Assembly: GCF_017377795.1 (NCBI RefSeq)
Contig: NZ_JAFRDR010000010.1
Coordinates: 1 to 64,000, forward strand
Length of the DNA: 64,000 nucleotides
From: Williamsia soli
GTDB lineage: Bacteria; Actinomycetota; Actinomycetes; Mycobacteriales; Mycobacteriaceae
Reading direction: 5' to 3'
Position numbers and translations under genes: made by a program
Notes under the pieces: model-generated
What the model was told of the DNA's origin: nothing
The model's database searches: none
The model's input: only the letters and a program-made list of their open reading frames with translations
Shown here: positions 24,001 to 44,912 of the stretch, piece after piece
How positions within the stretch are numbered: the first letter of the stretch is position 1
Layout: each line of letters opens with the position of its first letter

Positions 24001-24004
<4 letters not shown>
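23387..24004 (+). CDS. purN: phosphoribosylglycinamide formyltransferase
   Basis: PurN transfers a formyl group from 10-formyl-THF to GAR in purine synthesis, 205 residues. The nucleotide-binding start [10 protein letters not shown] and the catalytic-site segment [15 protein letters not shown] are present. No ATG, GTG or TTG lies at a sensible position: the first in-frame GTG (about 23423) would remove the first beta-strand. A CTG at 23387 lies 7 nt after a strong GAGGAG (23374-23379), so I assign a rare CTG start. The stop overlaps purH by 4 nt. Confidence 0.88.
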
Positions 24005-25578
<1,574 letters not shown>

Positions 25579-25582
25579 CCGC

Positions 25583-25647
25583 CCGGAAGTGGTGGGTTCT
25601 GGCAAGTAAAAGCCCAGGTGGGCCTCACCACAAGCCACCACTTCCGG
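25583..25647 (+). repeat. 65-nt palindromic element A (perfect 13-bp arms, shared core)
   Basis: CCGGAAGTGGTGG at 25583-25595 pairs perfectly with CCACCACTTCCGG at 25635-25647. The interior holds GTTCTGGC and a GC-rich CCCAGGTGGG. It fills the space between the convergent stops of purH and the second metQ, so it may act as a bidirectional terminator, although no U tract is present. A second element of exactly the same length and core, but with a different arm sequence, lies at 41087-41151. Confidence 0.75.
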
Positions 25648-25652
25648 TCGGG

Positions 25653-26558
25653 TCAGATGGGTAGCAGGATGTTCTTCACCTGCGGATCGGTCGCGAGGTA
25701 TTCCTGGACCGCGGGATCCCTGAAGACCTGGATGAGCTTCTTGATGTTCTCGGTGTCTTTCCATTTGCTGCCGATGGTGAGCTGGCCGGCGAACTCGTCC
25801 GGCGCCGGCGGGGCGAAGATCTGCTTGGTCACGTCGATTCCGGCGGCGAGGTAGTACTCGGTGTAACCCACGGCAGCATCGAGATCGGGCAGGGCTCGTG
25901 ACTGTGCTGCGAAATCGAGCAATGTGAACTGCAGGTTCTTGGGATTTAAGACGATGTCCTTCTGCGTCGCCGCCCACTTGTCGGCGGTCGGGTTCAGTCC
26001 GATGAGGCCGGCACGTTCGAGCAACCACAAACCCTGGGCCTCGTTGGCGGGGTCGGAGTACAGAGACACGGTGGCGCCGTCGGGTAGCTGAGCGGGATCG
26101 GAATACTTGTCGGACCAGATGCCGAATCCCCAGCGGAAGACCGGTGTTGCCGCTTCTTCTTTGAAGTCCGGGTTGGCTTCGAGCACCTGGCCGAGCCAGA
26201 GTTTGTGCTGGTAGATGGTGCCTGCGATCTCACCGTCACTGACGGCCCTGTTGATGGTGGTGCTGTCGGCGAGGCCCTTGAACTTGATCTTCAGGTCGTA
26301 GTTCGGCGCGACCTTCTCGGCAATGAAGTTCACGAGCGCCTCTTCGGCCGCATTGCCCTCCGCGGTGGCGATCTCGAGGGTGGCGCCGGCGGTCTCGTTG
26401 GGAGACTTGGAGTCCGAGCCGCCCCAGAATCGCCACCCGGCGAACGCCAGCACGACGACCACGATCACGCCGATCGCGATGTACACGGGCAGACGTTTGC
26501 GTGCCTTTATGTCGAAGCCGCCGGGGTCTCCGGTAGGTCGTGGCGTGGTGGTGGTCAT
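25653..26558 (-). CDS. metQ2: MetQ-type binding protein with membrane anchor instead of lipobox
   Basis: This is the substrate-binding component of the second methionine-type importer, 301 residues, NlpA family (SDKYSDPAQLPDGATVSLYSDPAN, read in two parts, is typical). Unlike the first MetQ it has no lipobox cysteine. An N-terminal cytoplasmic stretch is followed by one membrane segment (residues about 25-47, VYIAIGVIVVVVLAFAGW), which should anchor it. ATG 26558 follows AGAGGAG on the minus strand. It is last in the order metN-metI-metQ. The ligand is unknown and could be methionine or a related sulfur compound. Confidence 0.85.
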   Translation of the reverse strand: MTTTTPRPTGDPGGFDIKARKRLPVYIAIGVIVVVVLAFAGWRFWGGSDSKSPNETAGATLEIATAEGNAAEEALVNFIAEKVAPNYDLKIKFKGLADSTTINRAVSDGEIAGTIYQHKLWLGQVLEANPDFKEEAATPVFRWGFGIWSDKYSDPAQLPDGATVSLYSDPANEAQGLWLLERAGLIGLNPTADKWAATQKDIVLNPKNLQFTLLDFAAQSRALPDLDAAVGYTEYYLAAGIDVTKQIFAPPAPDEFAGQLTIGSKWKDTENIKKLIQVFRDPAVQEYLATDPQVKNILLPI

Positions 26559-26620
26559 GTTTCTCCTCTGGTGGACGAAAGTGGCAGAGCTGTGGCGTAT
26601 TCGGGAAAAGAGTGGCCTGA

Positions 26621-27337
26621 TCAGACGGTGGTGCGGGCGCGCAGACTTTGTCCCGGCGTCAGATGGCGGACGAGCGCGTCGCCGATGATCTGAATCAGCG
26701 CGACGGTGACCACCAGGGTGACGATGGTCGCGATCATGACGCCGTGATCGAACCGCTGATAGCCGTAGGTGACGGCGATGTACCCGAGACCGCCCGCGCC
26801 GATCGTGCCGGCAATGGCGGAGTACTCGATCATCGCGATGGTGTTGATCGTCAGTCCACCAACGATGTTGGGTAGGGCCTCCGGGATCTGGGTCTTCCAG
26901 ATCACCTGACTGTTCGAGGCGCCGGAAGCCCGGGCCACGTCGATCACCGAGGGAGGCACCGACCGCAGAGAGTTCTCCACGATCCGGGTGAAGAACGCCA
27001 CACCCGCGAGCGACATCGGAACCACGGCGGCCGGGATGCCGATGTTCGTACCGGTGATCCACCGGGTCAGCGGGATGATCGACGTCATGAGGACCAGAAA
27101 GGGTAGGGAACGTCCGATACTGATCACCCAGGACAGAGGGGAATGCAGGGCCTTGTTCTCATACAGACCACCAGGGGCCAGGTTGTGGATGGTCGCACCC
27201 AGAGGTACTCCGACGAGCAGCACGATGACCATCACGATGGACACCATGGTCAAGGTGTCGACGAACGCCGGAATCAACAGATCGGGGATCTCGTTGGTGG
27301 GAACCGTGATCGCCGCCAGATGGGCGGTGGTACTCAC
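26621..27337 (-). CDS. metI2: MetI-type ABC transporter permease
   Basis: This permease of the second methionine-type importer has 238 residues and about five membrane segments, with the EAA loop as DVARASGASNSQV. GTG 27337 overlaps the metN2 stop by 4 nt. It differs clearly from the first MetI of this window (for example the N-terminal 20 residues and the IGRSLPFLVL segment), so the two systems are old paralogues and not a recent duplication. Confidence 0.88.
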   Translation of the reverse strand: MSTTAHLAAITVPTNEIPDLLIPAFVDTLTMVSIVMVIVLLVGVPLGATIHNLAPGGLYENKALHSPLSWVISIGRSLPFLVLMTSIIPLTRWITGTNIGIPAAVVPMSLAGVAFFTRIVENSLRSVPPSVIDVARASGASNSQVIWKTQIPEALPNIVGGLTINTIAMIEYSAIAGTIGAGGLGYIAVTYGYQRFDHGVMIATIVTLVVTVALIQIIGDALVRHLTPGQSLRARTTV

Positions 27338-28338
27338 GCGGCCACCTCGACTTCAGACGAGGTCGTGACCGTACCGGCCAGCCCGTGGCGGGCGGCACTG
27401 TCGATGAATGCCGTAGCGACCTCGTCGGGGATCGACACCGTGACCGAGCCGACCGACACCCCATCGACGACCTGTACGGCGGCTCCGAGCACGGCGACGG
27501 GGATGGCGAGTTCGGTGCCTATGCGGGTGATCCAGTCGGTGGGTACGTTCGCGGAGTTGTAGGTCAACTCGACCGACCGCTGCCCGGGTCCTGGCTCTGC
27601 GGATGTCCCACGAGGCCGCAGTGATCGACCCAGCACCGACGTCGAATCAGTGAGAAGGTCCACGAGTGACCCTTTTTCGACGATCCGCCCAGAATTGAGC
27701 CTGCCGACGCTGTCGGCGACCTTCACGATGGTGTCCATCTCGTGCGTGATGAACACCACGGCGAGATCGAGCTCTAGTCGAACCTCACGGAGGAGTTCCA
27801 GGAACGAATCGGTGGTCTGCGGATCCAACCCGGACGTCGCTTCGTCGGACAACAACACCGATGGACGTAGCGCGAGGGCGCGGGCGATGCCGACTCGCTG
27901 GCGCTGACCGCCGGAGAGTTGATGCGGGTACAGGTGCGCGCGATCGGTGAGACCGACACGGTCGAGGAGTTCGGCCACCCTGCTCCGGGTCTGGACCTTG
28001 GTGACGCCCAGGAACTCCAGCGGCAAAGCCACGTTCTCGGCTGCCGTGCGGCGTGACAACAGACTCGACGACTGGAACACGGTCCCGATACGTCGGCGGG
28101 CGTCGCGCAACGCGCTGCTCCCGAGTTCGGTGAGGTTCTGGTTGTTCACCACCACCTTTCCGGACGTCGGCCGTTCCAGCAGGTTCAAACAGTGCGCGAG
28201 CGTGCTCTTTCCGGCTCCGCTGGGGCCGACGATGGCGAAAATCTCTCCCGGGTCGACTGTGAAGCTCACGTCGTCGAGGACGGTGGTCGCGGCGGGTCCG
28301 GAGCCATAGATCTTCCCGAGCTTTTCTACTTCGATCAC
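27334..28338 (-). CDS. metN2: MetN-type ABC transporter ATPase
   Basis: This ATPase of the second importer has 334 residues. Walker A is GPSGAGKST, the signature LSGGQRQRVG and Walker B VLLSDEATSGLD (Ser replaces the more usual Ala before Asp-Glu). A C-terminal NIL-type domain is present. GTG 28338 gives a normal N-terminus (MIEVEKLGKIYG); an in-frame TTG 7 codons upstream is the alternative. It is the first gene of the minus-strand operon. The 209-nt gap to the divergent acetyltransferase must hold its promoter. Confidence 0.88.
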   Translation of the reverse strand: MIEVEKLGKIYGSGPAATTVLDDVSFTVDPGEIFAIVGPSGAGKSTLAHCLNLLERPTSGKVVVNNQNLTELGSSALRDARRRIGTVFQSSSLLSRRTAAENVALPLEFLGVTKVQTRSRVAELLDRVGLTDRAHLYPHQLSGGQRQRVGIARALALRPSVLLSDEATSGLDPQTTDSFLELLREVRLELDLAVVFITHEMDTIVKVADSVGRLNSGRIVEKGSLVDLLTDSTSVLGRSLRPRGTSAEPGPGQRSVELTYNSANVPTDWITRIGTELAIPVAVLGAAVQVVDGVSVGSVTVSIPDEVATAFIDSAARHGLAGTVTTSSEVEVAA

Positions 28339-28547
28339 GGAGTGTGTCTTTCTCAGCAAAGTGGTCCGACGCCAGGCGCGCCGGTACGCGAGTCATCCTG
28401 GCCACCGGCTGCGGATCGGCACAGCTTTGCGATCAGCGTGACCCCAACTGGACAGACCCTTCTCCATGACAGAGGGTGTCCGGGCGGACTTTCGATCGCG
28501 ACAGTTGTAAGCGGTGATCCATCTGGTTGTGGTGACATAGTCGACCG

Positions 28548-29258
28548 GTGATCGATCTCGAACATGCACATCCACTCGACGACCCCGTCGGGTCGTCGTT
28601 GCGCGGTGCCCATCGGCGCTTCGCCCAGCAACGTGGTCGGATCCTGCGTTACCGACCCGACGTTGCCCGGTTCATCGCGTATCCGGCCCACCCAGATGCT
28701 CGGGACTGGCACGATCTGGCTGAATTGGTCGGTCCGGGCGTCGAGTTCACGTTGCGCAACTACACCGATGATCCGCCGGATCCGGTCCACCTGCTGCGCA
28801 GGTTCGAGGTCGTGCAGATGACCGGCGAGGACATCAGGGACGCCGACGCCGACGCCGACGCCGCCGGTGTCGAGGTCCTGGACGACGCTGACGTGCCGCA
28901 GATGCTGGACCTCGTCGAGAGGACCCGGCCCGGACCGTTCTTTGCTTCCACCATCGACATGGGCACCTATCTCGGAATCCGGCACGACGGCAGACTCGTC
29001 GCGATGGCGGGCGAGCGGATGCATCCGGCGGGCTGGACGGAGATCAGCGCTGTGTGCGTCGAAGCGGGCTTTCGGAACCGCGGGCTCGCGACGACGCTTG
29101 TCGGTGCCGTGGCCGAAATCATCTGCACTCGTGGGGATGTGCCGTTCCTCCATGCGTCATCGATCAACCACAATGCGATCGCGTTGTACGAGTCGATCGG
29201 TTTTCGCCACCGCGCGCGGCCGGTGCTGTCGGTCATGCGGTTCGGCGATCCCACCTGA
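28548..29258 (+). CDS. GNAT-family N-acetyltransferase
   Basis: This protein of 236 residues has a GNAT acetyl-CoA-binding fold in its C-terminal 130 residues. The pyrophosphate loop is FRNRGLATTLV, and the terminal motif is HNAIALYESIGF (FR47-like). The N-terminal 100 residues are a second, degenerate GNAT-like half. The substrate cannot be told from sequence. It diverges from metN2. The GTG start has a weak ribosome-binding site. Confidence 0.78.
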   Translation: MIDLEHAHPLDDPVGSSLRGAHRRFAQQRGRILRYRPDVARFIAYPAHPDARDWHDLAELVGPGVEFTLRNYTDDPPDPVHLLRRFEVVQMTGEDIRDADADADAAGVEVLDDADVPQMLDLVERTRPGPFFASTIDMGTYLGIRHDGRLVAMAGERMHPAGWTEISAVCVEAGFRNRGLATTLVGAVAEIICTRGDVPFLHASSINHNAIALYESIGFRHRARPVLSVMRFGDPT

Positions 29259-29348
29259 CTGAAGTGGACCCGACGTCATTTGTTCTGCGTTAGGGTTGCT
29301 CCACGGTGCGGATGGGCTCGGTAGTCGCCGGATACAGGGGAGCGCAGA

Positions 29349-31178
29349 GTGGTCAGCAAGGCAACGGGTGGGGTCGGCGAACGCGGCGCCGGGAAGTCAG
29401 GCCGTGGGGATATAGGCCACACCATCGGACTGCGCGAACTGCTTGCCGGGATCGCGGAGATGCGACACGATCTTCCGTCCATCGCGCGAAGTCTGCCCGC
29501 TCTGGCCGATCACCGCCGATCGCGGAAGATGACCATCGGCAAGCGGTTTCAGCAAGTCGCGGCCGCACACTCCGAGCGACCGTTCCTACGTTTCGAAGGT
29601 GAATCCATCTCGTACACGGAGGCCAACCGCACGGTCAACCGGTACGCGGCGTTGCTCACCGCCCGCGGGGTCGGGGCCGGTGATGTGGTGGCCATCTGCT
29701 CACAGAACCAGCCGGCCATCGTGCTCACGATGCTTGCCACCGTCAAGTTGGGCGCGACGGCGGGCATGCTCAACCACAACCAGCGCGGCGAGGTGCTGAC
29801 GCACAGTCTCGGCTTGCTGAAGGCGAAGATCTTGCTCGTGGATCCTGACGTCTGCGAGGTGTTCGATGCCGTGCCCGAGCATGCGATGCCGGCGACGACC
29901 CTGAGTTTTCTCGACCTGGCCGAGGAATCAATCGGCCTGTCCGACCGCGATCCTTCGATCACGGCGCAACTGCCCGCCTCGACCACAGCGTTCTACATCT
30001 TCACCTCAGGTACCACCGGGATGCCGAAAGCGAGCGTGATGTCCCATTCGCGGTGGCTGGCGGCGATGTCCGGAATCGGCGGTGTCGGAATACGTTTAAG
30101 GAAAGACGATACGATGTACGCATCGCTGCCGTTCTATCACAACAATGCGCTGACGGTGTCCCTTGCGGCGGTGCTGACCAGCGGTGCCTGCCTGGCCATC
30201 GGAAGAAGATTCTCCGCCTCCACCTTTTGGGACGACATCGCACTCAACAGGGCAACTGCCTTCTGCTACATCGGTGAGTTGTGCCGCTACCTGCTCGCCC
30301 AGCCGCCGGTGCCTGCGGATCGGGAACACACTGTTCGCCTGGTGGTGGGCAACGGTTTACGTCCGGGTATCTGGGATGAGTTCACTCAACGGTTCGGAAT
30401 CTCGCGGGTGGTTGAATTCTACTCGGCCAGCGAAGCGAACATCGGGTTCATCAACTTGTTCAACGTGGCGAAGACGGTTGGGTTCTGTCCGCTGCCCTAT
30501 GCGATCGTCGACTACGATCCGGATACCGGTGAGCCGCTGCGGGGCAGAGACCGCCGGTTGATCAAGCTCCCCAAAGGTTCTGCGGGACTGCTGGTGTCGC
30601 AGATCAGCAAGCGGGTTCCGTTCGACGGGTACACCGACCCCGCGGCATCGTCGAAGAAGATCGTCACCGACGCCTTCAAAGACGGGGACCGGTGGTTCAA
30701 CACCGGTGACCTCGTTCGCGGGCAGGGGTTTTCACACATCGCCTTCGTCGACCGGCTCGGTGACACCTTTCGGTGGAAAGGCGAGAACGTCGCCACCACG
30801 GAGGTCGAGAACGTGCTTGACGGTTCTGGGCAGGTGGCACAGTCGGTGGTGTTCGGTGTCGAGGTCCCCGGGACCGATGGACGCGCGGGCATGGCGGCCA
30901 TCATTCTCACCGGCGGAGAGTCGCTCGACACCCGAGTGTTGACCGACCACCTCGGCCGGCACCTGCCCGCCTACGCGATGCCCCTGTTTGTTCGTGTGGT
31001 GAGGGAACTGGCACACACCTCCACCTTCAAGAGCGTCAAGGTCGCGTTGCGGGACGAGGGTTACACCGACACCGGCGACGACGACGTCTACGTGTACGTC
31101 GGCGGTACCGACGGCTACGCGCCGTTCTATGACGGATACGCCACCGAGGTCGCGGCAGGCACCCTCCCGCGCAAGTAG
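29349..31178 (+). CDS. fatty acyl-CoA ligase, very-long-chain (FadD6-like)
   Basis: This adenylate-forming ligase of 609 residues has FTSGTTGMPKASV and the motif FRWKGENVATTEVEN, typical of the FATP/very-long-chain acyl-CoA synthetase group (FadD6/FadD17 type). It activates long-chain fatty acids to CoA thioesters, possibly coupled to uptake. GTG 29349 follows GGGGAGC. The protein keeps the full C-terminal subdomain including KSVKVALRDEGY. It stands alone between the acetyltransferase and a TauE/SafE exporter. Confidence 0.85.
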   Translation: MVSKATGGVGERGAGKSGRGDIGHTIGLRELLAGIAEMRHDLPSIARSLPALADHRRSRKMTIGKRFQQVAAAHSERPFLRFEGESISYTEANRTVNRYAALLTARGVGAGDVVAICSQNQPAIVLTMLATVKLGATAGMLNHNQRGEVLTHSLGLLKAKILLVDPDVCEVFDAVPEHAMPATTLSFLDLAEESIGLSDRDPSITAQLPASTTAFYIFTSGTTGMPKASVMSHSRWLAAMSGIGGVGIRLRKDDTMYASLPFYHNNALTVSLAAVLTSGACLAIGRRFSASTFWDDIALNRATAFCYIGELCRYLLAQPPVPADREHTVRLVVGNGLRPGIWDEFTQRFGISRVVEFYSASEANIGFINLFNVAKTVGFCPLPYAIVDYDPDTGEPLRGRDRRLIKLPKGSAGLLVSQISKRVPFDGYTDPAASSKKIVTDAFKDGDRWFNTGDLVRGQGFSHIAFVDRLGDTFRWKGENVATTEVENVLDGSGQVAQSVVFGVEVPGTDGRAGMAAIILTGGESLDTRVLTDHLGRHLPAYAMPLFVRVVRELAHTSTFKSVKVALRDEGYTDTGDDDVYVYVGGTDGYAPFYDGYATEVAAGTLPRK

Positions 31179-31274
31179 CTCGGCGCTGGGCCCTTTCGCC
31201 GAGGCTGAAGCAATCGGTGCTCACCTCACCGCCGGTGAGCGACCCATCCCACGGGTGGGGTAGGTTTCGGCGTT

Positions 31275-32003
31275 GTGGCAGAAGTGGCGTTCCTCGTTGT
31301 CGCCGGCTTCTTCTCCGGCGTGGTCGGGTACGTGACCGGTATCGCCTCACTCGTGAGCTATCCGGCTCTGCTGCTGGTGGGTCTACCGCCCATCACGGCC
31401 AACGTCACCAACACGGTCGCGTTGATCCCGGTCGGCATCGGGAGTGCGACACAGGCTCGTGCGTCGATCACCTTGGACCGCAGACTCGGTCTCCTTCTGG
31501 GCGCTGCCGCAGCGGGCGGTCTCGTCGGCTCGGTGGTCCTGCTGCTCACCCCGGCGACCACGTTCGAGGCCCTCGTCCCGTATCTCGTTGCATTCGCCGC
31601 ACTTGCGGTGCTGTGCCAACCGCTGATCAGGCGGCTCTCGGGCCACCGGGACGCGCCGACGGTGTTCGGGATCGGCGTCTTCGTCATCGGGATCTACGGC
31701 GGCTACTTCGGTGCCGGTGCCGGGATCATCTTCATGGCACTGGCGTTGTTGGCCACCGGTCAGACGATGTTCCAGGCGACGCTGCTCAAGTCGCTGCTGT
31801 TGTGCGCGTCGAATCTCGTTGCATCGGTGGCGTTCGCGTTCTTCTTCTCGATCGACTGGGTGGCGGCGGCGAGCATGGGAATCGGTTGCCTTGCGGGCGG
31901 GTGGATCGGACCACCTGTCGTAGCCCGGTTACCGGTCGCCGTGCTGCGCGTCGCCATCGCGTTCAGTGGCTTCGGGCTCGCGATCTGGCTGGCATTCCGT
32001 TAG
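31275..32003 (+). CDS. TauE/SafE-family anion exporter
   Basis: This membrane protein of 242 residues has about eight hydrophobic segments in two repeated halves (AGFFSGVVGYVTGIASL, then GIYGGYFGAGAGIIFM). This is the TauE/SafE family, which exports sulfite, sulfoacetate or related organic anions. With two methionine-type importers and two monooxygenases in the same window it could discharge excess sulfite (inference); the family also covers other substrates. GTG start. Confidence 0.82.
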   Translation: MAEVAFLVVAGFFSGVVGYVTGIASLVSYPALLLVGLPPITANVTNTVALIPVGIGSATQARASITLDRRLGLLLGAAAAGGLVGSVVLLLTPATTFEALVPYLVAFAALAVLCQPLIRRLSGHRDAPTVFGIGVFVIGIYGGYFGAGAGIIFMALALLATGQTMFQATLLKSLLLCASNLVASVAFAFFFSIDWVAAASMGIGCLAGGWIGPPVVARLPVAVLRVAIAFSGFGLAIWLAFR

Positions 32004-32041
32004 AGGGTCGACTTTCCCCCTGAGATCGGTCGCGATTCGGA

Positions 32042-32091
32042 CCTGGGATGGCAATACGCCATTCGCCCTCCCATACGGGGCTGATCCCAGG
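32042..32091. terminator. hairpin between convergent genes
   Basis: CCTGGGAT at 32042-32049 pairs with ATCCCAGG at 32084-32091, and ATGGC/GCCAT (5-nt loop) forms a second small stem inside. It lies between the stop of the exporter (32003) and that of the convergent CoA-transferase (32099). There is no clear U tract. A bidirectional terminator is the simplest reading. Confidence 0.45.
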
Positions 32092-32098
32092 GCGCGGC

Positions 32099-33349: not shown

Positions 33350-33449
33350 CGACTCGCCGGGTCGATCGACACCCCTGGAACGGCGCCGACGGTTCCTCTG
33401 CAGGCGTAAAGGAGTGCGTTTCTGCGGTAGTGCTCGTAGCGTGGAAGGG

Positions 33450-34865
33450 GTGAGCACACCCCACACCGCGAATATCACCACTGCCCACCCCTCGCCGCGC
33501 ACCCTCGGGGAGCTGCGCGCGTCGGGTCATGTGCAGCGCAGCGTCAAAGACGAGATCCGCAACAACCTGCTGACGAAGCTCCGCGCGGGTGACGATCCAT
33601 GGCCCGGGATCCTCGGGTTCGAGGCCACCGTCATCCCGCAGCTCGAACGCGCCTTGCTGGCCGGGCACGACGTCGTCATGCTCGGCGAGCGCGGCCAGGG
33701 CAAGACCCGGCTGCTGCGCACCATCTCCGGACTCCTCGACGAGTGGACGCCCGTCATCGATGGCTCAGAACTGGCCGAGCACCCCTTCGAGCCCATCACC
33801 CCGGCATCCATCCGCAAAGCCGCGAACCTGCAGGAAGACCTGCCCATCAGCTGGTTGCACCGGAGCGAGCGGTACAGCGAGAAACTCGCGACCCCGGATA
33901 CCTCGGTGGGCGATCTCGTGGGCGACGTCGACCCGATGAAGGTGGCCGAGGGTCGCAGTCTCGGCGACCCCGAGACCATCCACTTCGGCCTGATCCCTAG
34001 GGCACATCGCGGCATCGTTGCCATCAACGAGCTGCCCGATCTCGCCGAGCGGATCCAGGTCGCGATGCTCAACGTGATGGAGGAACGCGACATCCAGGTC
34101 CGCGGCTACAGCCTGCGGCTGCCGCTCGACGTCGTCCTGATGGCCAGCGCGAACCCCGAGGACTACACGAACCGCGGTCGGATCATCACTCCGCTCAAGG
34201 ACCGTTTCGGCGCCGAGATCCGCACTCACTACCCGATCGAACTGGACGACGAGATCGCGGTCATCGAGCAGGAAGCCGACCTGATGGCGACCGTGCCGAC
34301 GTTCCTGATCGAGATCATCGCCCGGTTCACCCGGCACGTGCGTGATCATCCGGCGATCGATCAGCGCTCCGGTGTCTCGGCACGTTTCGCCATCGCCGGC
34401 GCCGAGACCGTCGCGGCCGCGGCGCTGCACCGGTCGGCGGTCCTCGGCGAGGAGTTCCCGGTGGCCCGCATCGTCGACCTCTCGTCGGTGATCGAGGTGC
34501 TGCGCGGCAAGGTGGAGTTCGAATCCGGGGAAGAGGGCCGCGAACTCGAGATCCTCGAGCACCTCCTTCGGAAGTCGACGGCAGACACGGTTCGAGCACA
34601 CCTCGGTGGGGTCGACCTGGCCACGCTCGTCACCGCGCTCGAGGCCAGCGAACCGATCGTCACCGGTGATCGGGTCTCGGCGTCGCAGCTGCTCGGTTCG
34701 ATGCCCGAGGGCACGGAGCCGGTCGTCAACAAGATCGCCGAACGCTTCGACATCACCGACGAAGGTGAGCGGGCCAGCGCATTGGAGCTCGCCCTCGAAG
34801 GGCTGTTCCTGGCGCGGCGGATCGGCAAAGAGGCCGACGAAGAAGGCCAGACCATTTATGGCTAG
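33450..34865 (+). CDS. MoxR/ChlI-type AAA+ ATPase
   Basis: This AAA+ protein of 471 residues resembles magnesium-chelatase subunit I and MoxR. Walker A is GERGQGKT, a Walker B region is GIVAINELPDL, and sensor segments include VVLMASANPEDYTNRGR. It matches Rv0958 by position and size. Together with the VWA-domain protein encoded 30 nt downstream it should form a MoxR-VWA chaperone-like pair, with unknown client. There are no chlorophyll genes, so a true magnesium chelatase is unlikely. GTG 33450 gives the best N-terminus. Confidence 0.85.
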   Translation: MSTPHTANITTAHPSPRTLGELRASGHVQRSVKDEIRNNLLTKLRAGDDPWPGILGFEATVIPQLERALLAGHDVVMLGERGQGKTRLLRTISGLLDEWTPVIDGSELAEHPFEPITPASIRKAANLQEDLPISWLHRSERYSEKLATPDTSVGDLVGDVDPMKVAEGRSLGDPETIHFGLIPRAHRGIVAINELPDLAERIQVAMLNVMEERDIQVRGYSLRLPLDVVLMASANPEDYTNRGRIITPLKDRFGAEIRTHYPIELDDEIAVIEQEADLMATVPTFLIEIIARFTRHVRDHPAIDQRSGVSARFAIAGAETVAAAALHRSAVLGEEFPVARIVDLSSVIEVLRGKVEFESGEEGRELEILEHLLRKSTADTVRAHLGGVDLATLVTALEASEPIVTGDRVSASQLLGSMPEGTEPVVNKIAERFDITDEGERASALELALEGLFLARRIGKEADEEGQTIYG

Positions 34866-34895
34866 ACACCACTAGATCTTTCGACGGGAAACAAC

Positions 34896-36899
34896 ATGGC
34901 CCGCAGTAATTTTCATCGCGCACGATATTTGCGCTACACCGGTGGACCCGATCCGCTCGCGCCGCCCGTCGACCTGCGTGACGCACTCGATGCCATCGGC
35001 GATGACGTGATGGCCGGTGGCTCACCGCAGGCCGCGATGAGGGAATACCTGCGCCGCGGCAGCGAGAACATGCGTGGACTCGACGAACTCCGCGAGATGG
35101 TGAACAAGCGGCGCGAAGAGATCCTGAAGTCGCGCAATCTGAACGGAACGTTCGAGGAGATTCGTCAGCTGCTCGACGACGCGGTACTCGATGAGCGCAA
35201 GCAACTCGCCCGCGACCTCGATGACGAGGCCCGGTTCGCCGAGATGCAGATACAGAACCTCCCGACGTCCACCGCGCAGGCGGTGCAGGACCTCGCCAAC
35301 TACGACTGGCGCAGTCCCGAGGCCAAGGAGAAGTACGACAAGATCAAAGATCTGCTGGGCAGGGAGCTGCTCGACCAGCGTTTTGCCGGGATGAAGGAGG
35401 CCCTCGAAGGGGCAACCGAAGAAGACCGGCAACGTATCGCGGACATGCTCAAAGACCTCAACGAGCTGTTGGCCGCCCATAACCGCGGCGAGGACACCTC
35501 CGAGCAGTTCGGGGAGTTCATGGAGAAGCACGGTGACTTCTTTCCGGAGAACCCGAAGAACACCGATGAGCTCATCGATTCGCTCGCCGCCCGTGCCGCT
35601 GCCGCGCAGCAGTTCTACAACTCTCTGTCGGACGAGCAGCGCGCCGAGCTCGATCAGTTGTCCCAGCAGGCCTTCGGATCACCGGATCTGATGAACCAGC
35701 TCGCCCAGATGGATTCGCAACTGCAGCAGGCCCGTCCGGGTATGGGCTGGGGCGAAGGCCAGGACTTCGAGGGCGGCCAGGGGATGGGGATGGGCGAAGG
35801 TGCCGGTGCCCTGCAAGATCTCGCTGAGTTGGAATCTCTGTCAGAGCAACTTTCGCAACAGTATTCGGGCGCCCATCTCGATGACGTCGACCTCGACGCG
35901 CTGGCCCGCCAGCTCGGTGCCGACGCGGCTGTGGACGCCAGGACCTTGTCCGAGCTGGAGAAGGCTCTCAAAGAACAGGGCCTGCTCGAAAAGGGCAGCG
36001 ACGGTCAATTGCGGCTGTCGCCCAAGGCGATGCGGCAACTGGGGCAGTCGATCTTCAAGGATGTGGCCGAGCAGCTCTCTGGCCGCGGCGGCGACCGTCA
36101 GACGCGACGGTCGGGACAGGCGGGGGAGCCCACGGGCTCTTCTCGTGAATGGGAGTTCGGCGACACCGAACCGTGGGATGTCACCCGAACGGTCTCGAAT
36201 GCGGTGTTGCGCACCATATCCGAAGATCCGGACAAGTTGCACGCCGGCAACGGCATGCTCCGCGACGGCGTGCGGATCAACGTCCGCGACGTGGAGGTCG
36301 GGGAGACCGAGGCGCGGAGCCAGGCCGCGGTCGCGCTGCTGGTGGACACCTCGTTCTCGATGTGGCTCGAGAATCGCTGGACGCCGATGAAGCGTACGGC
36401 GATGGCGCTCAACCACCTGATCTCCACCCGGTTCCGCTCCGATGAGCTCGAACTGATCTCGTTCGGGCACTACGCCCGCACCCTGGAGATGAGTGAGCTG
36501 ATCGGCCTCGACGGCATGCGGCAGCAGGGCACCAATCTGCATCACGCGCTGTTGCTGGCGCAGCGGCATTTTCGCAAGCATCCGAACGCCCAGCCGGTGG
36601 TGCTGATCGTCACCGACGGTGAGCCGACGGCTCATCTGCTCCCGGGTGGTGAGCCGTTCTTCTACTACCCGCCGCATCCTGCGACCCTCGGAGCGACCGT
36701 CCGGGAGTTGGACAACGTGGCCAGGATGGGCGCTCAGGTCAGTATTTTCCGGCTCGGCGACGACCCGGGCCTGGTGCAGTTCGTCGACCAGATGGCCCGC
36801 AGGGTGTCGGGGCGCGTGGTGGCCCCTGATCTCGACGGACTCGGTGCGGCCGTGGTGGGCGACTACCTGGGCGGCAAACGCCGTCGGGGCAGGCGCTGA
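34896..36899 (+). CDS. VWA-domain protein, MoxR partner (CoxE-like)
   Basis: This protein of 667 residues corresponds to Rv0959. The N-terminal two-thirds is helical and charged, with a Gly/Met/Gln-rich patch (GWGEGQDFEGGQGMGMGEG). The C-terminal 220 residues form a von Willebrand A domain with the metal-ion site DTSFSMW and later TDGEPTAH. VWA proteins of this type work with the neighbouring MoxR ATPase in assembling or activating other complexes. ATG 34896. Confidence 0.85.
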   Translation: MARSNFHRARYLRYTGGPDPLAPPVDLRDALDAIGDDVMAGGSPQAAMREYLRRGSENMRGLDELREMVNKRREEILKSRNLNGTFEEIRQLLDDAVLDERKQLARDLDDEARFAEMQIQNLPTSTAQAVQDLANYDWRSPEAKEKYDKIKDLLGRELLDQRFAGMKEALEGATEEDRQRIADMLKDLNELLAAHNRGEDTSEQFGEFMEKHGDFFPENPKNTDELIDSLAARAAAAQQFYNSLSDEQRAELDQLSQQAFGSPDLMNQLAQMDSQLQQARPGMGWGEGQDFEGGQGMGMGEGAGALQDLAELESLSEQLSQQYSGAHLDDVDLDALARQLGADAAVDARTLSELEKALKEQGLLEKGSDGQLRLSPKAMRQLGQSIFKDVAEQLSGRGGDRQTRRSGQAGEPTGSSREWEFGDTEPWDVTRTVSNAVLRTISEDPDKLHAGNGMLRDGVRINVRDVEVGETEARSQAAVALLVDTSFSMWLENRWTPMKRTAMALNHLISTRFRSDELELISFGHYARTLEMSELIGLDGMRQQGTNLHHALLLAQRHFRKHPNAQPVVLIVTDGEPTAHLLPGGEPFFYYPPHPATLGATVRELDNVARMGAQVSIFRLGDDPGLVQFVDQMARRVSGRVVAPDLDGLGAAVVGDYLGGKRRRGRR

Positions 36900-36920
36900 C
36901 CCGGCCACGCTCCGCCTGTG

Positions 36921-36960
36921 CGAGGACGCTCCACCGGTAAGTGGCGCGTCCTCGTATTTC
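36921..36960 (+). terminator. strong hairpin after the VWA gene
   Basis: CGAGGACGC at 36921-36929 pairs with GCGTCCTCG at 36946-36954. CCAC/GTGG continues the stem inside around a cggtaa loop, and TATTTC follows. It ends the MoxR-VWA operon 22 nt after the stop. Confidence 0.75.
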
Positions 36961-37062
36961 TGGCGCTCGGTGGGTGAGGACCGGTACTAGTCCTGAAGTA
37001 GGGGGTCCACACTCCGTCCGGAGTTGGATGCACGATCGGGCGCCACACCATACTGTTCAGGC

Positions 37063-38109
37063 ATGGATGCGACCCGGAACGATCAGGTTCGACTGTATGC
37101 CGACCTTCTTTCCGAGGTAAAAGCCCTTGGCCTGCTGGAACGCAGGATCGGCTGGTACGCGGGCAGGCTCGCGTTGCTGCTCGGCGCGTTTCTCGCCACG
37201 TTCGGTGTGGTCTTTGCGCTCGGTTCGAGTTGGTGGCAAATAGCCATTGCTCCAGTATTCGGAATCTTGTTCACCCAGACGGCATTTCTGTCGCACGACA
37301 GCGCCCACAAGCAGGTGTTCGCCTCGGGCAAGGCGAACGAGTGGGCTGCCCGACTCATCGGCAACCTGATCGTGGGTCTCGGATATGGCTGGTGGCAGGG
37401 CAAACACTCCAAGCATCACGCGAATCCGAACAAGATCGGCAAGGACGGCGACATCGCGACCGGTGCGCTGATGTTCGTGCCCGAAGATTTCGAGGACACC
37501 GGCGGCCTCAAGGGCTGGATTCGGGCCCACCAGGGCTGGCTGTTCTTCCCCATGCTCACCCTCGAAGGGGTGAACCTGCACTTCGAGTCGCTGAAAGTCC
37601 TTTTCGACGGCACCCGCCCGAGTCGGCGCCGCCTCGAGCTCGCGTTGCTCTCGATCCGGTTGATCGGTTTCCCGGTGCTCGTGTTCAGCGCGATGGGCTG
37701 GGGCGTCGGCGCGGTGTTCCTCATCGTGCAGTCGGTGGTCTTCGGGCTCTACATGGGCGCCAGTTTCGCACCCAATCACAAGGGGATGCCGATTGTGCCG
37801 AAAGACGTTCGGGTGAACTTTTTCGAGCGTCAGGTCCGTACCTCCCGCAACGTCCGCGGTGGTCGGGCGATGGACTGGGCGATGGGCGGATTGAATCTGC
37901 AGATCGAGCACCACCTGTTTCCCAGCATGCCGAGTGCGAGCCTGCGGCAGGCCCGGCCGCTCGTCCGCCGGTACTGCCTGGAGAACGATGTCCCTTACAC
38001 CGAAGCAGGCCTGGTCGAGTCCTACGGCATCGTCATCACGTACCTCAACCGGGTGGGCATGGGATTTGCGGATCCGTTCGAGTGCCCGTTCGTCGCGGCG
38101 TATCGCTGA
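37063..38109 (+). CDS. membrane fatty acid desaturase
   Basis: This di-iron fatty acid desaturase has 348 residues with membrane segments near residues 35-75 and 200-235. The three histidine boxes are HDSAH, HSKHH and a final QIEHH. It is of the acyl-lipid/acyl-CoA front-end type, as in mycobacterial DesA3-like enzymes. It needs a redox partner, which is not encoded nearby. ATG 37063 is preferred over one 13 codons upstream because the sequence before it is not conserved-looking. Confidence 0.88.
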   Translation: MDATRNDQVRLYADLLSEVKALGLLERRIGWYAGRLALLLGAFLATFGVVFALGSSWWQIAIAPVFGILFTQTAFLSHDSAHKQVFASGKANEWAARLIGNLIVGLGYGWWQGKHSKHHANPNKIGKDGDIATGALMFVPEDFEDTGGLKGWIRAHQGWLFFPMLTLEGVNLHFESLKVLFDGTRPSRRRLELALLSIRLIGFPVLVFSAMGWGVGAVFLIVQSVVFGLYMGASFAPNHKGMPIVPKDVRVNFFERQVRTSRNVRGGRAMDWAMGGLNLQIEHHLFPSMPSASLRQARPLVRRYCLENDVPYTEAGLVESYGIVITYLNRVGMGFADPFECPFVAAYR

Positions 38110-38145
38110 CACGCGCTGACACCCCGGGCGGTGCCGAGGGCGTCG

Positions 38146-38796
38146 TCACTTGTCGAGCGAGGTCTTCCCTTCACCCTGCGGACTTCGGCGTACCACTTCG
38201 ACGCCGCCCATGATGGCGAGGCCACTCACGGTGATCGTCGGGGCGCCGGGGACACCTTTGCCCTCGGCGTTACGGCTGCCGCTGAAGCCGCCCATGATGC
38301 CCATCCCGGTGATCCGCACCGTCGCATCGTGGGGCACGACGATCTCGATGCCGCCCATGATCGCGTTGGCGCGGATCGTCAGTTGATCGGACGTGAACTC
38401 GGCGTCGCGCAGATCGATCTCGACTCCGCCCATCAGAGCAAATGCGTTGAGATGCTCGCCGACGGCGACCCGACCCTTGAGTTCGGAACCACTCATCACG
38501 GCCACGCGACTGGTGATCACCTCGACACCGGCGGACGGTTGATTCACCCGGCGCGAGGTGGCGACCGCTGGTGTGGTCAGCTGGTTGACGGGCAGATCAT
38601 CGGTGAGCGAATCGAGTTCGCCGAATGTCTTGGCCGCGACGGCTTTACCGGCCCGCTCCTCGTATTCGACCGGACTCAGATGACCTTGGCTCATCGCGGA
38701 GGACAGGATCTGGTGAACCAAGTCTCGGTCGCTGTCGCTCGCTCGCAGGCGGCTGCGGCCCTGGTCAGGGTCTTCTGAAGGAATCAGGTCACTCAC
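38146..38796 (-). CDS. DUF1707 and cell-wall-active-antibiotic-response-type (LiaF-like) protein
   Basis: This protein of 216 residues has an N-terminal DUF1707 domain (SDSDRDLVHQILSSAMSQGHLSP, in parts: a short helical module seen in many actinobacterial regulators and membrane proteins). The C-terminal beta-rich domain has four repeats of the form (I/L)MGG(V/I/F) (ALMGGVEI, AIMGGIEI, GIMGGFSG, AIMGGVEV), as in LiaF C-terminal domains. No membrane segment is seen, so it is probably cytoplasmic. The GTG start is uncertain. Function unknown. Confidence 0.78.
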   Translation of the reverse strand: MSDLIPSEDPDQGRSRLRASDSDRDLVHQILSSAMSQGHLSPVEYEERAGKAVAAKTFGELDSLTDDLPVNQLTTPAVATSRRVNQPSAGVEVITSRVAVMSGSELKGRVAVGEHLNAFALMGGVEIDLRDAEFTSDQLTIRANAIMGGIEIVVPHDATVRITGMGIMGGFSGSRNAEGKGVPGAPTITVSGLAIMGGVEVVRRSPQGEGKTSLDK

Positions 38797-38945
38797 CCTT
38801 GTGAGGTTAGCCGCTGACGGTCGGTCGCGACCACAGGCCAGGACTACCCCACAGACCAGGGGCCGTGTCTCGAGTGTGGCGGTCGTTCGCGGTGCCCGGG
38901 AGTCGGCGCCGGGATATCGTTTCTCATCCGAGACCGGAGGACCCG

Positions 38946-40112
38946 ATGCCGTTGTTCCGCTTGCCCAGAGTCATGTCAGCCCTCGCCATCTCGGCCGCGA
39001 TGGCGGTCGGTCTGTCGATCACCGCCGCCCCGGCGGCAGCCGAACTCGACTTGCCCGCCGCGGTCGACGAGTTGATTCTCGACACCGTCGGCGACGGCAA
39101 TCTGCGTTCAGCGATCGTGCAGGTCCGGGTGAATGGCACGGTCGTCGCCGATCTCGCGTTCGGCGAGGCAGCGCCGGGTGTGCCTGCGACGACCCGGGAC
39201 CACTTCCGCAACGGGGCCATCGCGATCACCTACACGAGCGCGCTGCTGGTCGAACTGGACAAGAGGGGCATCGTCGGCTTCGACGAGCCGATCTCGACAT
39301 GGCGTCCCGATCTGCCGTACGCCGACAAGGTGACCCCACGCCAGCTCGCGTCGATGACCGCCGGCTACCCGGACTACGTCACCGATGAGTCGTTCACCGA
39401 GCAGAACCTGGCCGACGTCTACAAGAACTGGACCCCGGACGAGCTGCTGTCGTTCTCGTTCGCCCAGGAACGCATCTTCGAACCCGGAACGGAGTTCGGC
39501 TACTCGCACAGCAACTACGTGATCCTGGGTCTGGTACTCGAGAAGGCCACCGGCACGCCACTCGCCGACTTGTTGCGCACCTACATCTCGAATCCGCTCG
39601 GACTCAGCGAGACGGTGTCGAACCAGGGACCGGCGATCCCGGCGCCGGCGCTGCACGGGTTCAGCACCGATCGCGGTGCTTATGAGGACACCATCGACTG
39701 GAATCCTTCGTGGACCATCGCCAACGGGTCCGTACAGACGACCACCATCGACGACGCGGCTTCGAGTTTCGATGCGTTGCTGGGGTCCTCACGGTTCCTT
39801 GGCGAGGACGGCTACCGCGAGCTCACCGACCAGGGGTTGGCCGGTCTACCGTTCGGTGCCGGCACTCTGACCACCGCGCGTTCGTACGGGCTCGGCGTGT
39901 TCGTCAACAACGACTGGTTTTACGCGAATCCGTTCTTCAACGGATACACCTCGACGGTCCTGACGCTACCTGCCCACCGTTCGAAGATCGGCACCGTGAC
40001 CATCGCCGTCGCCGCGACGCCCACCGAAAAGGGGACGCAGGAGGGCAACATCGCGTACCCGCTTGCCACTGACATCGCGGCACTGATCGCACCGGACCAT
40101 CCGATCGCTTAG
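38946..40112 (+). CDS. secreted serine-hydrolase/beta-lactamase-fold protein lacking SxxK
   Basis: This protein of 388 residues has a signal peptide (MPLFRLPRVMSALAI, cleaved near APAAA-EL) and a class C beta-lactamase/DD-peptidase fold. Recognisable family segments are FDEPISTWRPDLP, TPRQLASMTAG and YSHSNYVILGLVLEKATG. The position that normally reads FRxGSxxK reads FRNGAIAI, so the nucleophilic Ser and general-base Lys are Ala and Ile. The second motif YSN reads YSH. It is therefore probably not a hydrolase but a binding or regulatory pseudo-enzyme. ATG 38946 is preceded by GGAGGA. Confidence 0.8.
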   Translation: MPLFRLPRVMSALAISAAMAVGLSITAAPAAAELDLPAAVDELILDTVGDGNLRSAIVQVRVNGTVVADLAFGEAAPGVPATTRDHFRNGAIAITYTSALLVELDKRGIVGFDEPISTWRPDLPYADKVTPRQLASMTAGYPDYVTDESFTEQNLADVYKNWTPDELLSFSFAQERIFEPGTEFGYSHSNYVILGLVLEKATGTPLADLLRTYISNPLGLSETVSNQGPAIPAPALHGFSTDRGAYEDTIDWNPSWTIANGSVQTTTIDDAASSFDALLGSSRFLGEDGYRELTDQGLAGLPFGAGTLTTARSYGLGVFVNNDWFYANPFFNGYTSTVLTLPAHRSKIGTVTIAVAATPTEKGTQEGNIAYPLATDIAALIAPDHPIA

Positions 40113-40116
40113 GGGC

Positions 40117-41067
40117 TCAGGCGAGTAGAAGGGCGATCAGGGCGATCGCCGGTATCGCGATCAGTGTCGTGACCAACGCCGAATCCCTCGCGAGCACCAC
40201 GCCGCGCTGATATCGCGTGGCGTAGACCAGGACGTTCTGAGCGGTCGGCAGCGCGGCGATCACGACAAGGGCGAACAGTTCGTGGCCGGTGGCACCGAAG
40301 GCGAATCGGGCGAGGAAGTACACCAGCACGGGCTGGACCACCATTTTCAGAAAGGCGGCGAGCGCGACGTCGCGGCGGGGGCTCTGCCCCTTCTGCAACA
40401 CGCTGACGCCGGTCAGCGACAACCCGAACACCAGGAGCGCCCCGGGAACCGACGCGTTGCCGAGCATGTCGAACGGCTCCATCACCGCCTCGGGCAGGGT
40501 GACCCCGATGATGGAGATCACCAGGCCGGCCGCTCCGCCCAGCACGATGGGGTTGGTGAACGGCGTCACGACGGTGTCGCGGAACGATATTCGACGGGTG
40601 ACGCCGTCGGAATCGGTACGTCCCACCGCGGTGAGATCGAGGGCGGTCAGCGCCAGCGGCGAGTAGACCATGATCTGAAACAACAGCAGCGGGGCCACGA
40701 ACGAGGCGTCGTCGAGAACGAAGATCGCGATCGGGATACCCAGGTTCGCACTGTTCACGTAGGACGCCGACAGCGCGCCGATGGTCGCCTCGGGGATCTG
40801 CCGTTTCAGCAGCCACCGGGCGATCACGAAATAGACCGCGCCGATCAGCAACGCGCTGCCCCCGGCGACCACCAGCGTCGTCGAGAAGACGTCGGCGAGG
40901 TCGGCTTTGGCGAGTGAGGAGAACAACAATGCGGGGGTGCAGACGAAAAACACCAAGCGTGACAACACTATTACTGCACCAGGGCCGAGAGCTTCGGTGC
41001 GGCCGAGGATGAATCCCACGAAGACGACGATGAAGATCACCGTGAAACCCTGGATTACGCCTGACAC
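40117..41067 (-). CDS. AEC-family (auxin efflux carrier-like) permease
   Basis: This protein of 316 residues has about ten membrane segments in two inverted halves. It matches the AEC family (SYVNSANLGIPIAIFVL and ALPTAQNVLVYATRY are typical), whose bacterial members move malate, malonate or amino acids. The substrate is unknown. The GTG start at 41067 lies 20 nt from palindromic element B. Its stop is 4 nt from that of the convergent serine-hydrolase-like gene. Confidence 0.85.
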   Translation of the reverse strand: MSGVIQGFTVIFIVVFVGFILGRTEALGPGAVIVLSRLVFFVCTPALLFSSLAKADLADVFSTTLVVAGGSALLIGAVYFVIARWLLKRQIPEATIGALSASYVNSANLGIPIAIFVLDDASFVAPLLLFQIMVYSPLALTALDLTAVGRTDSDGVTRRISFRDTVVTPFTNPIVLGGAAGLVISIIGVTLPEAVMEPFDMLGNASVPGALLVFGLSLTGVSVLQKGQSPRRDVALAAFLKMVVQPVLVYFLARFAFGATGHELFALVVIAALPTAQNVLVYATRYQRGVVLARDSALVTTLIAIPAIALIALLLA

Positions 41068-41086
41068 CTCAGCAGTCTAGGTACAC

Positions 41087-41151
41087 CCGATGATGGGTTG
41101 TTCTGGCGGGTCCCACCTGGGGTTTCGTTCGCCAGAACAACCCATCATCGG
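41087..41151 (-). repeat. 65-nt palindromic element B (perfect 22-bp arms, shared core)
   Basis: The 22-nt segment at 41087-41108 is the exact reverse complement of 41130-41151, around a 21-nt loop. Read on the minus strand it starts CCGATGATGG, contains GTTCTGGC at the same offset as element A and CCCAGGTGGG in the loop, and is 65 nt long like A. Its minus-strand start supplies the last Arg codon and the stop codon of the MarR-type gene. This suggests it was inserted at the 3' end of that gene. Confidence 0.75.
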
Positions 41152-41444
41152 AGGTCGGGGGCTCCGTCGAGGAGCGCGCGTAGGGCAGCGCGATGGGTCT
41201 CGTAGGCCTTTGTGCCCGCGGCGGTGGGTGTGTAGGTGGTCGACGCACCCCGCCCGTGACCATCTTTCGATGCGCGTACGTACCCCGCCGATTCCAGAGC
41301 CGACATCTGCTTCGACAGGTCGGAATCGGCCAGTCCCAGGTGTTCCTTGAGAAAACGGAAGGACGTCGACGAGCTGTTGACGAGAATCGCCATGGCTGCC
41401 AACCGCTTCGGGGCATGTATGACGGGATCGAGGCCGTCGATCAT
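41145..41444 (-). CDS. small winged-helix (MarR-type) transcriptional regulator
   Basis: This protein of 99 residues forms one winged-helix domain: IHAPKRLAAMAILVN, FRFLKEHLGLADSDLSKQMSALE (in parts) and the wing RGASTTYTPTAAG. It matches the family of short regulators (DUF/winged helix) that control an adjacent membrane protein. Its ATG overlaps the stop of the upstream membrane gene (ATGA). Its final residue and stop codon lie in palindromic element B, so the original C-terminus may have been different. Confidence 0.85.
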   Translation of the reverse strand: MIDGLDPVIHAPKRLAAMAILVNSSSTSFRFLKEHLGLADSDLSKQMSALESAGYVRASKDGHGRGASTTYTPTAAGTKAYETHRAALRALLDGAPDLR

Positions 41445-41905: not shown

Positions 41906-41953
41906 AGGGGAAAGTTTAGGGATCACTTTCCACTTGTGCAAGCAGAAAGTGAT
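41894..41953. promoter_or_regulatory. cluster of ATCACTTTC operator-like repeats
   Basis: ATCACTTTCC occurs at 41894-41903 and 41922-41931. Its inverse GAAAGTGAT is at 41945-41953, and GGAAAGT is at 41909-41915. This gives one perfect inverted repeat ACTTTCC-N5-GGAAAGT (41897-41915) and one ATCACTTTC-N14-GAAAGTGAT (41922-41953) around the start of the membrane gene. This is the pattern expected for autoregulation by the winged-helix protein of the same operon (inference). Confidence 0.55.
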
Positions 41954-41956
41954 CGA

Positions 41957-44875: not shown

Positions 44876-44912
44876 GGGCCTCTAGCCCTTCACCAAATCT
44901 CTAAACGACAGA

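Follow-up and report, generated by a model that had tools for sequence, protein, structure and literature searches.

The genome of Williamsia soli contains a dispersed family of at least 89 (about 90) palindromic elements, which were identified by a family-model search that scored no more than 150 candidates. Judging from their sequence and location, they are probably bidirectional transcription terminators of the U-tract-free (I-shaped) kind or hairpins at mRNA 3' ends, and we put the probability of this reading at roughly 0.6. The element consists of a stem of ~22 bp capped by an apical loop of 21 nt, in which a CAGGT motif is nearly constant. The sequence of the stem differs between copies and between genera, with its pairing retained.

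Two members of the family are located in the window, i.e. the entire stretch of 64,000 nucleotides that was analysed. Element 1 occupies positions 25583..25647 of the plus strand (loop 25605-25625, CAGGT 25615-25619), has a stem of the GGTGGG type and is flanked by convergent genes on both sides. Element 2 occupies positions 41087..41151 of the minus strand (loop 41109-41129, CAGGT 41115-41119). Both are hairpins of 65 nt, as the original prediction of two palindromes of equal length had it. They also share the core that was proposed for them, with GTTCTGGC at offset 13 and CCCAGGTGGG at offset 30 in both, and their differing outer arms of 13 nt pair perfectly. The inner stem of element 1 is mismatched, which leaves it with 18 of 22 pairs, and element 2 forms all 22. 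The family model scores element 1 at 70.1 bits (MFE of -38.0 and -42.9 for the two strands) and element 2 at 86.7 bits (-45.2 and -48.5). A chance origin is excluded because the window contains the core pattern, with up to three mismatches allowed, two times (0.01 expected), because the genome contains it 40 times and the reversed pattern 0 times, and because the folding z-scores of both elements on both strands range from -5.9 to -9.7, values of a strong GC-rich hairpin. The window has no Rfam match at the gathering score.

Both elements are positioned directly behind gene ends, as predicted. A putative purH-like gene, named from its translation (24001..25578, plus strand), ends 4 nt before element 1, and a convergent gene of an NlpA-type lipoprotein (25653..26486, minus strand; PF03180) ends 5 nt from its other side. 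The lipoprotein probably serves as the substrate-binding component of a MetNIQ-like transporter. Element 2 supplies the stop codon of a winged-helix regulator-like gene (41145..41618, minus strand; HTH_34), because the end of this gene at 41145 falls inside the element (TGA at 41145-41147); this part of the prediction is borne out as well. The start of the regulator-like gene is placed at 41444 instead of 41618 by a simple gene finder. The downstream gene, which encodes a membrane transport protein (40117..41067, minus strand; Mem_trans, PF03547), starts 19 nt past element 2.

Of the 89 listed elements, 54 are flanked by convergent genes, 31 by co-directional genes and only 4 by divergent genes (convergent versus divergent, p = 3e-12). 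Both stop codons are found within 25 nt at 48 of the 54 convergent sites, the gap to the stop is 0-12 nt at 83 of the 108 convergent gene ends, and the distances on the two sides of convergent sites do not differ. At 29 of the 31 co-directional sites the upstream stop is at most 17 nt away, as would be the case behind a transcription unit. The proximity to a stop codon that characterizes I-shaped terminators (about 50 bp) is thus shared by the family, with the exception of the 4 divergent sites out of 89. At co-directional sites, the orientation relative to the upstream gene is sense in 19 and antisense in 12 cases (p = 0.28), and a strand bias was dropped as not significant. The count of 89 excludes C24:93, a duplicate of C6:347 at a contig end, in which the 160 nt around C6:347 recur. 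Of the listed copies, 82 fit a model of 69 columns (the 65-nt element plus 2 nt on each side) with their length unchanged, and column counts leave out the 7 copies of other length. Aligned copies mostly start with CCGA or CCGG and end with TCGG or CCGG.

The family is present in all nine Williamsia genomes examined. Furthermore, the same loop is found in two other genera of the taxonomic family, one of which uses a wholly different stem. Their 25 loci comprise 17 convergent, 8 co-directional and 0 divergent sites; this placement was assigned by a script, which judged a neighbouring second copy at L258 and L264 and placed L261 poorly. A wider search with model R2 matched a single genome out of 396 of the phylum, that of Williamsia soli itself, under stricter filters and with few candidates scored per genome, so that weak copies may escape it. 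Hence, the element is far from solitary: there are many copies in the genome, copies in relatives, and their arms are paired.

The pairing of the stem is conserved with 86% of stem cells paired in the 82 Williamsia soli copies and 92% across the three genera. Stem covariation across the three genera is 0.511 versus 0.173 in shuffles (0 of 500 reach it), and shifted controls do not exceed 0.125; in one genome it is 0.220 versus 0.106 for the control. The number of further pair types shows no excess, being reached by 297 of 500 shuffles. Covariation counts are inflated by relatedness, and the arms change here in blocks. In orthologs that have not been exchanged, almost all changes of the stem are one-sided. 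Double changes that keep a pair account for only one of 41 pair events in the relative G006, one of 47 in G007 and one of 47 in G002, and stepwise compensation as the main source of the covariation is not borne out by these counts. The arms change mostly in whole blocks, via exchange of occupants at fixed sites. The original prediction needs to be divided: support was obtained for a family that is spread over the genome, has a fixed core and paired arms of varying sequence, and is selected as a folded element at gene ends, whereas arms that change together mainly by stepwise compensation are not supported.

Orthologous sites remain occupied in near relatives, of which five were sampled, while stems or whole elements have been swapped and loops inverted. 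In G006, the nearest relative, every one of the 24 recovered junctions is occupied, and in G002 this holds for 20 of 22. The occupied sites include several that were recognized by the model search or by reading: sites 7 (G006 and G007) and 23 (G006), site 3 in G006, where some 80 nt of additional distance separate the element from the gene and a different sequence precedes it, sites 2, 11 and 23 in G001 (long variants), and sites 2, 11 and 16 in G003 (35-49 bits). The ortholog table is without site 8, the flank of which matched several genes, and site 19 is left uncounted in relatives (flank match of only 76% in G007, which has no element there, and of 70% in G002); site 5 was located in G001 and G003, with its sequence left out. 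In G002, site 2 contains either a remnant or a pre-insertion sequence. At several junctions, among them sites 6 and 22 in G001 and G003, 4 in G002 and 16 in G001, the family member is absent and an unrelated strong hairpin is present. There are 16 junctions without a family member, 14 of which were folded, and only 7 of these reach the 5% level of coding DNA.

We propose that transcripts arriving from either side would form the same long hairpin, at which RNA polymerase would pause and release, or which would define and protect the 3' end. The orientation would be free because only the stem would be required from both sides. The family would have spread before the radiation of Williamsia. Its present renewal would come from copies that recombine with one another and from inversions mediated by the palindromes, and selection would maintain a hairpin at every address; an additional partner that reads the loop would keep CAGGT. 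In favor of termination we count the placement, the structure, the free orientation, the continued occupancy of sites, the unrelated hairpins at some vacant junctions and the precedent of I-shaped terminators in mycobacteria (PMC12288462). Against it we count the missing U-tract, the result of a terminator scan and the fact that only half of the folded vacant junctions reached the 5% level. Among the 8 bases that follow the element, no more than 3 are T in 87 of the 89 listed copies on one side and in 86 on the other, which excludes a canonical intrinsic terminator. The scan called neither of the long hairpins in the window; its single match, inside element 2, comprises an inner stem of 5 pairs and a T-rich stretch. 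The constant loop also speaks against simple termination, for which it is superfluous, and it reads differently from the two sides.

The loop contains a motif that is more constant than its surroundings. CAGGT shows 7 changes in 235 cells versus 94 in 752 elsewhere in the loop (p = 6e-6, for cells that are not independent), and the loop is found inverted in place between orthologs. A stable apical hairpin of 4 bp within the loop (CCCAGGTGGG) was considered and rejected. Its pairing is weak across genera, at 54% of cells, although 78% of cells are paired among the first 30 copies. The loop is therefore treated as open, with CAGGT in it. It is possible, though clearly less probable than termination as such, that the element is a modular 3'-end device, in which the constant loop (GA..., an A/T-rich stretch and CAGGT) sits on any long paired stem and is recognized by a protein or an RNA dedicated to it. 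The addresses would be fixed, stems would be exchanged between copies, the loop would be turned round, and each genus may have its own stem.

Alternatively, the elements could be non-autonomous mobile palindromes (MITE- or REP-like) that a transposase mobilized through their inverted repeat, and whose copies behind stop codons survived as the least harmful. This explanation accounts for the dispersal of the copies, with a median identity of 69%, and for the exchange of whole occupants at the same junction (sites 1, 11 and 14), in some cases with another spacer between stop codon and element. However, we consider it unlikely. The PF01797 (Y1_Tnp) profile, positive in 5 of 14 control genomes, has 0 matches in the Williamsia soli genome, and a REP/RAYT origin was rejected on the absence of a Y1_Tnp/RAYT gene. 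Limited queries found no copies on phages or plasmids: the exact core pattern had no match in viral contigs, and element 2, the only blastn query, had none in plasmids and phages. None of the five relatives yielded a clean empty site with a target duplication, and in G006 every recovered site is filled. The 0-12 nt gaps at most convergent gene ends are narrower than one would readily expect of surviving copies that had been inserted at random, and old copies conserve CAGGT. Hence, present mobility, the other origin suggested by the original prediction, is unsupported: the sites are old and common to several species, and a mobiliser was not found.

BIMEs, like REP elements, are repeated extragenic palindromes, and a somewhat less probable explanation is that the family acts at the DNA level in a BIME-like manner. 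Gyrase, a nucleoid protein or some other factor specific for the loop would bind the palindrome as duplex or cruciform, the palindrome would relieve or contain supercoils between convergent genes, and termination would be secondary. Positive supercoils accumulate at convergent gene ends, where most of the elements are placed, and an asymmetric constant loop that is used in either orientation and inverted in place fits DNA better than recognition of one RNA strand. On the other hand, 31 of the 89 listed sites lie between co-directional genes, and arms that stay paired across genera without a fixed sequence imply that pairing matters, which binding to linear duplex would not need. The least probable explanation, that a DNA process alone (template switching between arms or ectopic gene conversion) keeps the arms paired with no selection on the fold, finds its products in the block exchange of arms and the loop inversion and agrees with the rarity of double compensatory changes in place, but the placement at stop codons and the retention of CAGGT relative to the rest of the loop (p = 6e-6, cells not independent) both require selection.

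The terminator reading bears on the question of transcription termination between convergent genes of GC-rich actinobacteria. Each genome offers about 90 sites for comparison, and natural variants of stem, loop and orientation at the same address allow a direct test of the roles of stem and loop. In addition, covariation in a repeat family can stem from block exchange and inversion and not from stepwise compensation, which matters wherever covariation is taken as proof of RNA structure.

A search of titles and abstract openings, with subscription journals mostly outside its range, found no described family of such elements in Williamsia, Gordonia, Rhodococcus or actinobacteria. The closest structural parallel is the mycobacterial I-shaped terminator, described in the accessible text of PMC12288462 as having no U-tract and lying at most 50 bp from the stop codon; canonical terminators are reported there and in the accessible text of PMC10937400 to be rare in M. 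tuberculosis. Both are strong U-tract-free hairpins close behind a stop in a GC-rich actinobacterium. However, as presented in PMC12288462, I-shaped terminators are a structural type and not a repeated sequence, whereas the Williamsia family is one repeat with a constant apical loop at about 90 sites. REP elements, in the portion of PMC3733652 consulted, are likewise short genome-wide extragenic palindromes with proposed roles in termination, mRNA stability and supercoiling, but they measure 20-40 bp and carry a GTAG or CGTC tag; the Williamsia element is 65 nt long, has no such tag and no RAYT, and combines an exchangeable stem with a constant loop. Actinobacteria, Mycobacterium and Streptomyces do not occur in the main text of that paper. 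The SLS families of PMC2267715 are repeated stem-loops, some of them intergenic, and three high-GC actinobacteria are tabulated there; the accessible part of that source mentions neither Williamsia nor an exchange of stems in blocks or an inversion of loops at fixed sites. The paired DNA-uptake sequences of Neisseria and Pasteurellaceae, as described in the part of PMC1852404 consulted, are also a repeat that serves as a hairpin terminator and is enriched at tail-to-tail genes. There the repeat is the stem (about 9-11 nt), whereas the Williamsia family repeats the loop and leaves the stem free. In summary, U-tract-free hairpin terminators are known, and what appears to be new, as far as the literature search can tell, is a repeated family with a constant loop, an exchangeable stem and inversion of the loop in place.

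Re-reading of the sequence together with a palindrome scan bore out the original prediction that the window contains two palindromic elements of 65 nt (25583-25647 on the plus strand and 41087-41151 on the minus strand), both in their existence and in their description. Allowing up to three mismatches, a pattern taken from the core of both elements (TTCTGGC, then nine positions with three of them fixed, and CCCAGGTGGG) has 40 matches in the 6.07-Mb genome, whereas the reversed pattern has none. The first 30 copies could be aligned over 69 columns with zero gaps, and R1, a covariance model derived from these copies, gave at least 146 strand-wise matches in the same genome (E ≤ 0.01), which merged by place into at least 89 elements. 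No two of these are identical in sequence, their median identity being 69%, and 82 of the 89 occupy exactly 69 model columns. Four further long palindromes of the window (41921-41954, 44912-44939, 54106-54141 and 58062-58147), one of which lies between convergent genes, showed no membership in this family in the model search.

The element is a hairpin with a stem of 22 pairs (columns 3-24 with 46-67) and an apical loop of 21 nt. The consensus of the pre-loop column and the loop is approximately GA-R-N-R, an A/T-rich stretch and CAGGT-S-G, in which CAGGT is nearly invariant (C35 in 80, A36 in 73, G37 in 81, G38 in 77 and T39 in 81 of 82 own copies). A proposed inner CCC/GGG hairpin is weak, with 54% of its cells paired across genera. 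Of the stem cells in the 82 copies, 86% are paired; chimeras that combine the 5' arm from one copy with the 3' arm from a different copy reach 77%, and the corresponding values within columns 5-16 are 81% and 65%. The covariation in the alignment of the first 30 copies is 0.220 versus 0.106 in shuffled alignments, and none of 500 shuffles reaches it. Two of the five measures were weaker, as the number of pairs changed on both sides was reached by 42 of 500 shuffles and that of further pair types by 40.

The family was matched in all nine genomes of the genus that we examined. At the level of the taxonomic family, R1 matched 15 of 121 genomes in three of 31 genera (E ≤ 1e-6), and at the level of the order two of 200 genomes. 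The copies in the two other genera (g18 and g30) have the same loop as in Williamsia. The g18 stem still resembles one Williamsia type, whereas the g30 stem is wholly different. Columns 10 and 11, in Williamsia T (81 of 82 copies) and G (all 82), respectively, have changed in g30 jointly with their partners: of the 34 sequences in the alignment, 14 have A-T in place of T-A and 15 have A-T in place of G-C. In this three-genus alignment of 34 sequences, covariation is 0.511 versus 0.173 when shuffled, 17 of the 22 stem pairs have changed in both partners, and pairing holds in 92% of stem cells; the one measure not above the shuffled level was the number of further pair types. A second model built from it (R2) matched 28 of 301 genomes of the taxonomic family, in six of 31 genera (E ≤ 1e-4). 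Three of these six genera contributed one weak match apiece (genomes G018, G027 and G462 of genera g11, g20 and g6; E from 1.7e-5 to 3.4e-5), which may be due to chance. Across the phylum, R2 matched one of 396 genomes, namely the window's own. Hence, within the reach of these filtered searches, the family is essentially confined to three genera.

A core-pattern scan of named genomes gave 40 stretches. Of these, 38 come from Williamsia records, and the other two carry the label Kitasatospora arboriphila NRRL B-24581 (NZ_JNYV01000002.1 and NZ_JNYV01000003.1). One of the latter equals in length a contig of a genome placed in the window's genus (G005), so it is probably the label that is odd rather than the distribution of the element; either the naming or the culture may be in error.

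According to a simple codon-usage gene finder, 54 of the 89 elements lie between convergent, 31 between co-directional and four between divergent genes (convergent against divergent, p = 3e-12 for equality); the window's junctions overall comprise nine convergent and nine divergent ones. At 48 of the 54 convergent sites the element has a stop codon no more than 25 nt away on either side; over all 54, 83 of the 108 gaps measure 0-12 nt. At 29 of the 31 co-directional sites the upstream stop is at most 17 nt away, and the next gene starts 4-222 nt off. Fourteen genes end with a stop codon inside an element arm, for example at 41145. The 25 loci of the other two genera are distributed similarly (17 convergent, eight co-directional, none divergent).

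We then looked at orthologous sites. The sample comprised 24 random sites, whose gene ends were found in five relatives and most junctions read, plus the two window sites and minus site #8, 25 in total. A family member is present at all 24 sites recovered in Williamsia sp. 1135 (gene-end identity 84-98%, about 94% at the window sites); at site #3 its distance from the gene is greater by about 80 nt. The counts are 20 of 23 in Williamsia sp. 1138, with two more split by insertion sequences and one (#15) without an element; 20 of 22 in W. limnetica DSM 45521; nine of 16, three of them long variants, in W. faeni DSM 45372; and ten of 17, three with just 35-49 bits, in W. muralis NBRC 105860. The window site at 41087-41151 is occupied in all nine genomes. 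That at 25583-25647 carries the family type in four (the own genome, sp. 1135, sp. 1138 and W. limnetica), a hairpin with unlike arms and a weak model match (29-34 bits) in W. muralis, G005 and G008, a similar sequence under the threshold in G004 and an unrelated hairpin in W. faeni. Of 16 junctions without a family member, 14 were folded; seven of these are no higher than the 5% level for coding DNA, and the other seven are above it. Unrelated hairpins often occupy the place of the missing family member.

Several sites show further peculiarities. The insertion sequences in sp. 1138 (L275:15-1070, minus strand; L276:137-1240, plus strand) encode an IS110-type transposase in one case and rve and HTH_38 domains, presumably IS30-like, in the other; the elements may be insertion targets. 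The transporter operon behind the first window element (25649-28604) is absent in sp. 1135 (L167:2090-2100), where the break falls exactly at the element end and joins it to the next gene, GNAT-like by its translation. Long variants carry about 32-35 extra bases within the apical loop (L147:2060-2160, L227:55-157, L232:249-351 and L236:70-173); three of the four are from W. faeni, and the inserted sequence is largely common to them. A second, unrelated family of repeated palindromes, CGAGCCA....TACGAAGACGAGCCACAAATA, has 31 pattern matches in W. faeni versus 0-2 in the other eight genomes and sits (e.g. L277, L234) at gene ends where other genomes have the first family (the first window site and #22). 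At site #6 (L135; orthologs L175, L194 and L214) a second strong hairpin (CACGAGAAAGCCCCCCGG...) separates the family element from the stop codon; W. faeni and W. muralis have unrelated hairpins at that position.

The occupant of a site can change while the site persists. Between the own genome and sp. 1135, arm identity is 38-62% at sites #10, #11 and #14 and 83-100% at the 18 other sites compared. The loops at #1, #11, #14 and, in W. limnetica, #13 are closer to many other copies than to the ortholog, which makes it probable that the whole occupant was exchanged. At #10, the loop variant GACT, rare among own copies (1 of 82), is common to sp. 1135, sp. 1138 and W. limnetica but not W. muralis. 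This suggests that the arms alone were replaced there, despite the low rank of the ortholog by overall loop identity (4th, 11th and 4th, respectively). At #7, the loop in sp. 1135 is the reversed loop of the own genome (20 of 21 positions identical once inverted versus 4 of 21 uninverted), and at #16, #20 and #24 the loop is likewise inverted with the arms retained. In non-exchanged orthologs, two-sided pair events number only 2 of 41 (sp. 1135), 3 of 47 (sp. 1138) and 1 of 47 (W. limnetica), with one pair-keeping double change in each; the rest are one-sided. Hence, the covariation of the family is real but mostly generated in blocks. Loop changes fall in 7 of 235 CAGGT cells versus 94 of 752 in the remaining loop (p = 6e-6, the cells being not independent as the own genome enters all comparisons).

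We infer that the hairpin serves gene ends, given that it follows stop codons (those of both genes at convergent junctions), may face either way, stays paired although its sequence varies and is retained at its site; transcription presumably terminates at it. The own-genome copies checked have no U-tract, which rules out a canonical terminator; the mycobacterial I-shaped type (PMC12288462) would fit. A title in that paper's reference list states a U-tract requirement of the mycobacterial polymerase. Termination does not account for the constant loop. As loops occur in both orientations, a reader acting at the DNA level or in a strand-specific manner is possible.

We found no description of this family in the searched literature, as far as its text was accessible. 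A REP identity fails on tag, length and transposase. The nearest known systems are the mycobacterial I-shaped terminators, REP/BIME elements, SLS families and the uptake-sequence terminators of Neisseria. Among repeated palindromes at gene ends, what is new here is the combination of a constant loop, an exchangeable stem and inversion in place.
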